The translations under genes were made by a program, and so were the position numbers. The notes below the pieces were generated by a model. It was not told the DNA's origin. It ran no database searches and saw nothing but the letters and a program-made list of their open reading frames with translations. Below, one piece after another: positions 5,790-17,093 of a DNA stretch of 35,247 nt. This DNA is from Rhodothermales bacterium. GTDB lineage: Bacteria; Bacteroidota; Rhodothermia; Rhodothermales; JAHQVL01. Where the stretch lies: positions 1-35,247 of the forward strand of contig JAWXAX010000230.1 of NCBI GenBank assembly GCA_034439735.1, in the 5' to 3' direction. Within the stretch, counting starts at the first letter, position 1. The number at the start of each line of letters is the position of its first letter.

Positions 5790-6959
5790 ATGGCTTATCT
5801 CTTTACATCCGAATCCGTATCCGAAGGGCATCCGGATAAAGTTGCCGATCAGATCTCCGACGCCATTCTTGATGCGTTGCTCGAGCAAGATTCCCGCAGC
5901 CGCGTCGCCGTGGAAACCCTGGTCACGACCGGGCTCGTCATGTTATCCGGAGAAGTGACCACCAGCGCGTATATCGATGTGCAGCAGATTGCGCGGGACG
6001 TGATTCGGGAAATCGGGTATGTCGACCCCCGGCTTCGCTTCGACGCGGAATCCTGCGCGGTGCTGAGCAGTATCCACGAGCAGAGCCCGGACATCAGCCA
6101 GGGGGTCACCGAAGGCGCCGGCCTGTATGCCGAGCAGGGCGCGGGCGACCAGGGCATGATGTTTGGTTACGCCTCTTGTGAGACGGAGGAACTGATGCCG
6201 ATGACGCTCGTCTTCTCCCACGGCCTGGTCCGCGAACTGGCGAACATTCGTAAGCACACGAACCTGATGCCGTACCTTCGCCCGGATGCCAAGAGCCAGG
6301 TCACGATCGAGTACGAGGATGACCGCCGCACCCCGCGCCGAGTCCATACCGTGGTGGTCTCAACACAGCACGATGAGGAGGTTTCACAGAAGCGGATCTA
6401 CGAAGATGTGCGCGAAATCCTGCTACCTCGTGTTATCTCGGCGGATTTGATCGATAAAGATCTCATCCTGCACGTCAACCCGACGGGGCGCTTCGTCATC
6501 GGCGGCCCCCACGGTGACACGGGGCTTACGGGCCGCAAGATCATCGTCGATACCTATGGCGGTCGTGGCGCCCATGGTGGTGGTGCGTTTAGCGGCAAAG
6601 ACCCTTCGAAGGTCGACCGCTCGGCCGCTTATGCGGCGCGGCACGTGGCCAAAAACCTGGTCGCCGCCGGCCTGGCCGAGGAAGTCCTCGTCCAGATCGC
6701 CTACGCCATCGGCGTGGCCTCTCCCGTGTCGATCGACGTCAGCACCTATGGCACGGGAGTTGTTGACGACAAGCAGCTGGTGCAACTCGTCCGCGAGACG
6801 TTCGATCTGCGCCCGACCTCCATCATTCGTCAGCTAGACCTGCTTAGGCCGAAATATCGTCAGACGGCGGCGTACGGTCACTTCGGTCGCTCAGAATTCT
6901 CATGGGAAGCGTTGGATCGCGTCGATACCCTGAAGCGCGGAGCCGCGCAGTTGGCTTGA
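5790..6959 (+). CDS. metK: S-adenosylmethionine synthetase
   Basis: Makes S-adenosylmethionine from methionine and ATP in the cytoplasm. All signatures are present: the N-terminal [13 protein letters not shown] (GHPDK at 13-17, ATP and metal binding), [11 protein letters not shown] (117-127), and the P-loop-like [16 protein letters not shown] near residues 260-275. The length of 389 is standard for bacterial MetK. Start ATG 5790 is clear from the family N-terminus [10 protein letters not shown]. The next gene, a secreted protease, overlaps its 3' end if the ATG at 6902 is used. With ahcY about 4.3 kb downstream it forms part of the SAM cycle. The long upstream leader suggests regulated expression. 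Confidence 0.97.
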
Positions 6960-14322: not shown

Positions 14323-14351
14323 TTGACAAGCGATCCTTATAACCTTATCTT
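14323..14351 (+). promoter_or_regulatory. Candidate promoter for DUF3109-rpoN; possibly leaderless
   Basis: TTGACA (14323-14328), a 17-bp spacer, then TATCTT (14346-14351). The usual start point, about 7 nt after the -10 box, falls at or next to ATG 14360, so the transcript would have almost no 5' leader. TATCTTTTG also resembles the Bacteroidota -7 box TAnnTTTG with one extra T. Confidence 0.5.
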
Positions 14352-14359
14352 TTGGCATT

Positions 14360-14956
14360 ATGTTTGCTGTAGGTAGCGTATTAGTGTCGGACAACGTGCT
14401 CGATGCCCCGTTCACCTGCAACCTCGGAGCGTGCCTGGGCGGGTGCTGTGTTGTCGGAACATCCGGCGCCCCACTAGAGCCGGACGAGCGAGCGGAGTTG
14501 GAGCGGGCACTGCCCCGGGTTCGCAAGTATTTGCGGCCCGAAGCCCTCGAGATCATCGACGAGCATGGCCCCTGGGAAGAGCTAGAAGCAGGTCGGTACG
14601 CCACACAGTGTGTGGATAGTGCCGAGTGTGTATTCGTCATCTTCGAGGGCCCGATCGCGAAGTGCAGCCTTCAAAAGGCGTACCATGCCGGCCGCATCGA
14701 CTTCGAAAAGCCCGTGTCGTGCCACCTCTACCCGATCCGCATTCAGCGGTATGGCGACTACGAGGCCCTGAATTACGAGCAAATCAGCCTTTGCACCCCG
14801 GCTGTCCATCATGGGCAGCGGCTTGGCATGCAGCTAATAGACTTCCTACGCGAACCGCTTGTGCGCAAGTATGGCGAAGAATGGTATAAGCAGTTCCGTG
14901 AGGCATGCATCGAGCGTCGAAAGACGCTGGGCTTGCATCGGGACTCGAACAGTTGA
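14360..14956 (+). CDS. DUF3109 family cysteine-rich protein
   Basis: The 198-residue protein belongs to DUF3109, a family common in Bacteroidota and related to YkgJ-like metal-binding proteins. It has a conserved cysteine cluster CNLGACLGGCC (C20, C25, C29, C30) and later cysteines at C84, C90, C102, C121 and C145 (for instance KPVSCHLYPIRI), which suggests a bound metal ion or Fe-S cluster; the function is not established. It has no signal peptide or membrane segment, so it is likely cytoplasmic. The start ATG 14360 lies immediately after a promoter-like sequence. It ends 15 bp before rpoN and is probably in the same operon. Confidence 0.85.
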   Translation: MFAVGSVLVSDNVLDAPFTCNLGACLGGCCVVGTSGAPLEPDERAELERALPRVRKYLRPEALEIIDEHGPWEELEAGRYATQCVDSAECVFVIFEGPIAKCSLQKAYHAGRIDFEKPVSCHLYPIRIQRYGDYEALNYEQISLCTPAVHHGQRLGMQLIDFLREPLVRKYGEEWYKQFREACIERRKTLGLHRDSNS

Positions 14957-14971
14957 CCTTGGGAGACCACG

Positions 14972-16474
14972 ATGCTAAACCTTCATCAAAGACAATCGCT
15001 TCAGCAGAAGCTTTCGCCGCAGCAGATTCAGTACATCAAGTTGCTGCAACTGCCGACGCTGGCGCTTGAACAGCGGATCAAGGCCGAACTCGAGTCCAAT
15101 CCGTTGCTTGAGGAAGGCGACGACGAAGAAATCAAGGAAGAAACGGAGCCGCAGCAGGAAGGCGCCGACGATTCCATCGAGCAGATCGAACTCCAGAAAG
15201 AAGATCAGATCAACAAGGAGGACGACTACGACTGGGACGAATTCCTGAACAGTGCGGAGGATCTCTATGGCTACAAGGCGCAGGTCGATCACAGCGAAGA
15301 GGAAGACGATCGCGAATTCCCGCTGCCGGCGCGGGTTTCCATGGCCGAACACCTTCTTGATCAGTTGCCCTTCCTGAATCTTAATGAAACCGAGTTGCTC
15401 ATCGCGGAACAGATCATCGGTTCGATCGATGAGGACGGCTACTTGAGACGGCCGCTGGAATCGATCATCGACGACATCATGTTCAACCAGGGCCTCATGC
15501 TTTCGGATGAGGATGTCGAACAGGTGCTCCAGCGCGTCCAGCGGCTTGACCCCGTCGGCATCGCCGCCCGCGACCTGCGCGAGTGCCTCCTCGTTCAGCT
15601 CGACAACCTTCCCGATGACCTTCGCGGCCGCGAAGTGGCCGTCGCGATGCTCGAAAAAGCGTATAAGGCGTTCACCATGAAGCATTTCGATGCGATCATG
15701 AAACGCCTTGACGCCTCGTCGGAAGAACTGAAAGAGGCGTTCGATCTCATCCAGCGCCTCAACCCCAAGCCCGGAGAAGGGGAGTTCACGGCGGCGCAGA
15801 ACTACATCACGCCGGATTTCTCCGTCGTGTTCGTCGAGGGCGAATTTTACATCAATCTGAACGGCGGCAATACGCCGGAATTACGCATCTCTCGCCAGTA
15901 TCGGCAGATGCTCCATCAGATCTCCGCCGAGAAAAAGAACCCCGAACGCAAAAACGGGAGTTCGTTCGACTCGGAAACCAAGCAGTTCCTGCGCGGCAAA
16001 CTCGAGTCCGCCCGCTGGTTCATCAACTCGATCAACCAGCGCCGGCAGACAATGATGAAGGTCATGCGCGCCATCGTCGAAATCCAGGAGGACTTCTTCA
16101 AGTTCGGCGAGGGCTTCCTGCGGCCGATGATCCTCAAAGACGTTGCCGAACGCATCAGCATGGACATCTCCACAGTCAGCCGCGTCGTCAACGGGAAATA
16201 TGTCCAGACCGAATTCGGCGTCTACGAACTGAAATATTTCTTCTCCGAAGGCCTCTCCACCGACAGTGGCGAGGAGATCTCCAACAAGGAAGTAAAAGCG
16301 ATTATCGAAACGATCATCGGCGGCGAAGAAAAGCGAAAGCCGCTGTCGGACCAGAAGATCGCCCAGATGCTGGAAGATAAAGGCTTTCAGATTGCCCGAC
16401 GCACCGTCACCAAATACCGCGAGCAGCTCGGCATTCCCGTGGCGCGTCTCCGGAAGGAAATTGTACTCTCCTGA
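14972..16474 (+). CDS. rpoN: RNA polymerase sigma-54 factor
   Basis: Alternative sigma factor that recognises -24/-12 promoters and needs an AAA+ activator to open them. The 500-residue protein has Region I (LHQRQSLQQKLSPQQIQYIKLLQLP, 4-28), a long acidic Region II (about 48-120, rich in Glu and Asp), the core-binding region, a helix-turn-helix near 385-425 (LKDVAERISMDISTVSRVVNGKY) and the RpoN box ARRTVTKYRE (about 475-484) that binds the -24 element. A ribosome site GGGAG precedes ATG 14972. It is the second gene after DUF3109. The usual neighbours hpf and ptsN are absent; instead a small gene with its own sigma-54 promoter follows. No activator gene lies in the window. Confidence 0.97.
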   Translation: MLNLHQRQSLQQKLSPQQIQYIKLLQLPTLALEQRIKAELESNPLLEEGDDEEIKEETEPQQEGADDSIEQIELQKEDQINKEDDYDWDEFLNSAEDLYGYKAQVDHSEEEDDREFPLPARVSMAEHLLDQLPFLNLNETELLIAEQIIGSIDEDGYLRRPLESIIDDIMFNQGLMLSDEDVEQVLQRVQRLDPVGIAARDLRECLLVQLDNLPDDLRGREVAVAMLEKAYKAFTMKHFDAIMKRLDASSEELKEAFDLIQRLNPKPGEGEFTAAQNYITPDFSVVFVEGEFYINLNGGNTPELRISRQYRQMLHQISAEKKNPERKNGSSFDSETKQFLRGKLESARWFINSINQRRQTMMKVMRAIVEIQEDFFKFGEGFLRPMILKDVAERISMDISTVSRVVNGKYVQTEFGVYELKYFFSEGLSTDSGEEISNKEVKAIIETIIGGEEKRKPLSDQKIAQMLEDKGFQIARRTVTKYREQLGIPVARLRKEIVLS

Positions 16475-16561
16475 ATACACGGCTGGCAACTTCTGTTCAC
16501 TACCCTCGTGCTCCCGTCTTTCCGCGGCCGGCTTGCTTCCGCCCTGGCTCATCTCGCTCCC

Positions 16562-16581
16562 GACCGATTGGGTCTTTTTTT
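16562..16581 (+). terminator. Weak terminator candidate after rpoN
   Basis: GACC (16562-16565) and GGTC (16571-16574) can form a short hairpin followed by seven T. The 4-bp stem is weak, but the position between rpoN and a separate promoter is sensible. Confidence 0.3.
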
Positions 16582-16606
16582 CGATCCAGGTGCGATAGTA
16601 TCGACC

Positions 16607-16622
16607 TGGCCCGTTCTTTGCT
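16607..16622 (+). promoter_or_regulatory. Sigma-54 (-24/-12) promoter
   Basis: TGGCCCGTTCTTTGCT matches the RpoN consensus TGGCACG-N4-TTGCW with one change; the invariant GG (16608-16609) and GC (16620-16621) have exactly 10 bp between them. The predicted start is near 16633, giving a leader of about 47 nt before ATG 16680. It lies just downstream of rpoN itself. Confidence 0.78.
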
Positions 16623-16679
16623 TAAGTATTGTGTAATTATTCGACCGACAGTCCCCCGAAGACCTAGTGAGGCTCACGT

Positions 16680-16958
16680 ATGACCACGCATCCGCGGCAA
16701 CACGCCGCTCCTCAGCACACTCTCCGCCAACACTCCGCGCTGCCCCGGCTCTTTGCGTTATATGTTACTGGTAAAATCGCCGAGACGTCCTGGACCGACA
16801 TGATGAACGCGATCGACGAAGGCGTTGAGACGCCCGAAGAACGCGAAGGACTCGCCAAGTATTTCGCGGACGCCTGTGCTGAAACTGGCGCCGAGGCGAT
16901 GAAAGTGCCGGCCCTACATGAAATTCAGGCGCTCCTTGGCGCCATGCGCGCTAACTGA
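16680..16958 (+). CDS. Small unrecognised protein under a sigma-54 promoter
   Basis: I do not recognise this 92-residue protein. The first 25 residues are rich in Gln, His and Arg (RQHAAPQHTLRQHSALPRL); the rest is mostly acidic predicted helix (GKIAETSWTDMMNAIDEG, TPEEREGLAKYFADACAET, HEIQALLGAM). There is no signal peptide and no membrane segment. It is well supported as a gene: a GTGAGG ribosome site sits 7 nt before ATG 16680, a near-consensus sigma-54 promoter lies upstream and an intrinsic terminator downstream. Its position next to rpoN and its promoter type suggest a product of the sigma-54 regulon, perhaps a stress, nitrogen or surface-related regulator (inference only). Confidence 0.72.
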   Translation: MTTHPRQHAAPQHTLRQHSALPRLFALYVTGKIAETSWTDMMNAIDEGVETPEEREGLAKYFADACAETGAEAMKVPALHEIQALLGAMRAN

Positions 16959-17032: not shown

Positions 17033-17062
17033 GACTGCTCCCCGTAAGGCGCAGTCTTTTTT
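17033..17062 (+). terminator. Intrinsic terminator after the 92-residue gene
   Basis: GACTGC (17033-17038) pairs with GCAGTC (17051-17056), with two more G-C pairs possible after a mismatch inside the loop, and six T follow (17057-17062). On the minus strand GCAGTC is followed by GTTTTATC, so it may also help end the convergent dehydrogenase gene. Confidence 0.72.
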
Positions 17063-17093
17063 ATGGCGTTTGGCCAGGGTTCAGCCCGGCCGT

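Follow-up and report, generated by a model that had tools for sequence, protein, structure and literature searches.

Introduction

The sigma-54 promoter consensus is YTGGCACG-N4-TTGCW. Two described systems are close to the locus analysed here. In Proteobacteria, rpoN, the gene of sigma-54, is linked to hpf, ptsN, rapZ and npr; our locus resembles these arrangements in having a small gene 3' of rpoN, but the product of this gene has no family match, the gene has a sigma-54-type promoter and transcription unit of its own, and its linkage to rpoN is loose. The second system is the PspF-type envelope stress regulon. The likeness consists in a receiver-less activator, a small regulon and a possible envelope signal; here, however, the candidate activator is linked to miaB and lptE and not to psp genes, the signal is a predicted one, and the target protein is unrelated by Pfam/NCBIfam scan. 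Francke et al. 2011 (PMC3162934) see sigma-54 as controlling the bacterial exterior, a theme that fits an lptE-linked activator and an htrA target; the main text of that paper mentions neither Rhodothermus nor Salinibacter nor Bacteroidetes. Our literature search naming Rhodothermus or Salinibacter found nothing relevant. The locus provides a conserved, predictable sigma-54 target for a group in which sigma-54 has received little study, and points to two candidate activators; its undescribed protein family may have a part in reporting or controlling either envelope stress or sigma-54.

Organization of the locus

The analysed stretch (the window, 35,247 nucleotides) corresponds to the whole of contig C230 in the 5.13 Mb genome assembly of a Rhodothermales bacterium. 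The named relatives of its rpoN come from Rhodothermaceae/Rhodothermia metagenome assemblies, on which grounds the order of the compared genomes is taken as Rhodothermales. Its relevant features are collected in Table 1. The only rpoN copy of the genome (stop codon 16472-16474) follows a gene for a DUF3109 protein, which is found 5' of rpoN in most relatives and is probably the first gene of the rpoN transcription unit. Since a sigma-70-like promoter stands at DUF3109-rpoN, rpoN itself is not seen as sigma-54-driven; in relatives, TTGACA-N17-TACGTT recurs equally close to the DUF3109 ATG. A sigma-54-like element over the DUF3109 start (14350) was rejected, as it is not conserved in relatives. 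The short distance between the -10 hexamer and the ATG (window positions 14323-14360) suggests a leaderless or nearly leaderless DUF3109-rpoN mRNA.

Table 1. Coordinates of the features around rpoN and the small gene in the window
Feature	Position	Strand	Details
Sigma-70-like promoter of DUF3109-rpoN, TTGACA-N17-TATCTT	14323..14351	+	~8 bp 5' of DUF3109 ATG
DUF3109 protein gene	14360..14956	+	Pfam PF11307, E 1.3e-63
rpoN (sigma-54)	14972..16474	+	PF00309, PF04963, PF04552: all three domains
Weak terminator-like site 3' of rpoN	16559..16582	+	CCCGACCGATTGGG then T-run
-24/-12 element TGGCCCG-N4-TTGC of the candidate sigma-54 promoter	16607..16621	+	sequence and conservation
Predicted transcription start	16632..16633	+	~12 bp 3' of the -12 element, by spacing rule
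GAGG, possible ribosome-binding site	16669..16672	+	sequence; 7 bp 5' of ATG
Small gene, 92-residue helical protein, order-specific family	16680..16958	+	
Intrinsic terminator of the small gene, GACTGC...GCAGTC then T6	17035..17064	+	-13.9 kcal/mol, z -3.63

The initial annotation had placed a sigma-54 promoter about 130 bp after the rpoN stop, facing a small gene with its own ribosome-binding site and terminator. The layout bears this out. The sequence TGGCCCGTTCTTTGC has T at 16607, GG at 16608-16609, G at 16620 and C at 16621, so the exact GG-N10-GC spacing is present; it lies on the + strand, 132 bp 3' of the rpoN stop and 58 bp 5' of the ATG. The GAGG is a possible ribosome-binding site, and the terminator is strong, with none of 200 shuffles folding equally well. 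Between rpoN and the promoter, a terminator-like site that the initial annotation does not mention has a stem no better than those of shuffles (z -0.25). As also annotated, hpf and ptsN are absent from the neighbourhood: the upstream neighbours are ruvB and the DUF3109 gene, and on the downstream side a convergent HEAT/cytochrome gene follows.

An order-specific protein family

The same annotation was wrong in calling the small gene an orphan. Homologues were detected by tblastn in 38 of 60 relatives and by profile search in 73 of 114 genomes of the order Rhodothermales, while among 395 genomes of the phylum the matches were limited to members of the order, bar one marginal match. Judged by these searches, the gene belongs to an order-wide family, with no convincing member outside Rhodothermales. 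The homologues measure 64-106 residues as called, their start codons being partly uncertain, and L24, Y28, G31, E54, R55 and A57 are invariant or nearly so. The AlphaFold model has four helices (pLDDT 81). Searches of Pfam, NCBIfam and PDB sequences with the protein gave nothing significant, and Foldseek found no significant fold match in PDB and viral structures for the predicted structure; the product represents an undescribed protein family without a match in Pfam, NCBIfam or solved structures. Matches to Protein A were set aside as reflecting helical composition only; no stretch passes by itself. Read by eye, the sequence shows no obvious signal peptide or membrane segment, and the protein is therefore probably cytoplasmic.

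Conservation of the -24/-12 element

A genome-wide count gives 10 occurrences of the exact pattern TGGCNCGN4TTGC, compared with 27 of the backward control. With no enrichment of the pattern, the match before the small gene is no evidence by itself, and it is conservation that carries the case. Three of the additional matches share one location, the end of the gene that precedes flhA (presumably flhB), where coding sequence accounts for them.

We searched the upstream regions of the homologues (61 non-redundant regions of 130 bp each) for motifs by EM, setting no prior. The motif recovered de novo is TTTGGCcCGGTaTTTG[C/T], i.e. the -24/-12 element, with an objective of 370 as against 60-70 for dinucleotide-shuffled sets. 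The GG is conserved at 99% and the T-T-G core at 84-99%, and the element is positioned about 50-125 bp 5' of the ATG in the homologues. The trained matrix reaches a shuffle P<=0.01 in 64 of 73 genes; when each family is left out of the training in turn, the same threshold is still passed by 55 of 72 genes, the window gene scoring 0.005. The conserved element spans 11 families. Most relatives that keep the gene thus keep the element as well, and about nine homologues are without a clear site.

The element is found with the gene also in families f4, f12 and f13, where the gene is unlinked from rpoN. Conversely, 18 relatives lacking the gene were examined over the 4.5 kb following rpoN (less at contig ends), and this stretch contains neither an HMM match nor a site above 12.1 bits in any of them. 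This association with the gene, together with the absence of the element after rpoN where the gene is missing, indicates that the element belongs to the gene and not to rpoN. It also bears on an alternative, a chance match before an unrelated small ORF transcribed by read-through from rpoN. The lack of genome-wide enrichment and the weak stem after rpoN would both agree with this alternative, but given the conservation across 11 families and the coupling of the element to the gene we assign it next to no probability.

The element resembles sigma-54-dependent promoters in its GG-N10-G spacing, in its TGGC-C-G and TTG blocks and in its intergenic position before a gene. It differs from the consensus in two respects: in Rhodothermales the -12 G is often followed by T or A instead of C (C.38, T.39, A.16), and there is an additional, strongly conserved T (TTTG). 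The relaxed base after the -12 G might indicate binding by another factor or sigma, as might the motifs lying just upstream in some families. In f5 genomes these are GGTTA[CT], about 33-37 bp before the 18-bp motif, and GTGTC, at about 12-15 bp; in f15 genomes it is GTGTAA, at about 17-41 bp. Farther away, some f3 and f12 genomes have GTAAC at about 67-78 bp. Yet the combination of GG-N10-G, TGGC-C-G and TTTG is the hallmark of sigma-54, a search of the + strand from rpoN to the small-gene ATG gave no sigma-70-like promoter, and the same element precedes htrA (see below), all of which makes recognition by a different factor very improbable. We consider it likely, on comparative grounds, that the conserved element is a genuine sigma-54 promoter driving a single-gene unit. 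The central proposal of the initial annotation, a sigma-54 promoter for the small gene, is in this way strongly supported by order-wide conservation, including families in which the gene is unlinked from rpoN. As to enhancer sites, the de novo search of the upstream regions found no order-wide motif and only the family-specific elements listed above, which may be activator sites, integration-factor sites or a second promoter.

Linkage to rpoN

We found rpoN in all 60 relatives. The small gene lies downstream of it, on the same strand and within 5 kb, in 55 of 73 genomes; the distance is at most 1 kb in 19 and at most 400 bp in nine of the 73. The two genes are direct neighbours in several families (f1, f2, f5, f8 and f15), which suggests that this is the ancestral arrangement and that insertions came later. 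In f4 the small gene is found beside a division cluster instead (genes read by eye), and some of the other cases are explained by contig ends. As far as gene order tells, the linkage to rpoN is old but loose. The reading of adjacency as linked function or feedback, put forward in the initial annotation, agrees with the age of the linkage but is weakened by the rarity of direct adjacency, by the persistence of the gene where it is unlinked and by the sigma-70-like promoter that DUF3109-rpoN has of its own.

A gene so placed could encode a protein devoted to feedback on sigma-54 or its activators, such as an anti-sigma factor or adaptor, which would account for its position beside rpoN. The old same-strand linkage, the sigma-54-type promoter and the small, helical product are compatible with such a role. 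We nevertheless regard it as unlikely: the linkage has been lost in several families that keep both gene and promoter, genomes without the gene retain rpoN and do not differ in activator number from those with it, and the protein has no resemblance to a known anti-sigma factor in the Pfam, NCBIfam and PDB-sequence searches. That an order-specific, sigma-54-induced protein in turn regulates sigma-54 polymerase or its activators, and so constitutes a new class of feedback regulators beside rpoN, appears more doubtful still.

Candidate activators

Besides sigma-54, the genome of the window encodes AAA+ activators, with ten full-length sigma-54 activator domains. All 11 f15 genomes examined have the small gene with a strong element, and each has exactly two activators. 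In one of them, G042, both are orthologous to activators of the window genome. The first is an NtrC-type response regulator (locus L069), located beside a TPR protein and a LolD-like ABC gene; the second is a receiver-less activator (locus L073, 49-3418) between miaB and lptE. These miaB/lptE and TPR neighbours are conserved, and the order miaB-activator-lptE is the same in distant members of the order (L178, L184), with lptE adjacent in L180 as well. By reciprocal best hit, both activators are present in every genome sampled for comparison, with the exception of the receiver-less one in G027. As f15 has the gene and its promoter and only these two activators, both of which occur in the window genome, one of them probably activates the small gene, assuming the same regulator in f15 and in the lineage of the window. 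A motif scan of the activator loci of the window genome gave weak matches only.

At the small-gene promoter, sigma-54 RNA polymerase would stay in a closed complex until remodelled by an AAA+ activator (bEBP), the likeliest activators being the receiver-less bEBP of the miaB-bEBP-lptE cluster and the NtrC-type response regulator. The single-gene unit would then yield the small helical protein only under a signal. Since two families have the same promoter type before htrA, and since lptE is linked to one of the candidate activators, this signal would most likely be cell-envelope or protein-folding stress, with the small protein acting as a stress effector or adaptor.

htrA, motility and other sites

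In G042, a stricter pattern has three matches: one before the small gene, one inside an ORF, and one 35 bp before the protease gene htrA/degP. A matrix built from small-gene sites only detects htrA sites at P<=0.01 in seven of nine f15 and three of five f5 genomes (upstream loci L216-L220, L223, L232, L229, L241 and L242), and in none of 14 genomes of other families, the window genome included. Together with the lptE-linked activator, the htrA sites suggest an envelope-stress regulon, the htrA evidence coming from f15 and f5 and not from the lineage of the window; a stress role of the small protein itself is a tentative possibility. The restriction of the conserved htrA/degP element to f15 and part of f5 suggests regulon turnover within the order.

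Sigma-54-controlled motility or surface structures offer another context for the protein, to which the distribution of flagellar FlhA might point: it is present in eight of 12 sampled genomes with the small gene and in two of 10 without it. Four carriers of the gene, however, lack FlhA (G042, G052, G005 and G020) and retain gene and site all the same, so that a role in motility or surface structures seems distinctly improbable.

The window contains a second strong -24/-12-like site, CTATGGCACGGGAGTTGT, at 6746-6763 on the + strand (16.3 bits); by a rough estimate, about a third of a hit as strong is expected in the window by chance. It lies 138 bp 5' of a gene for a secreted M36-like metalloprotease of 1413 aa, which has an FTP propeptide and a weak Por secretion tail.
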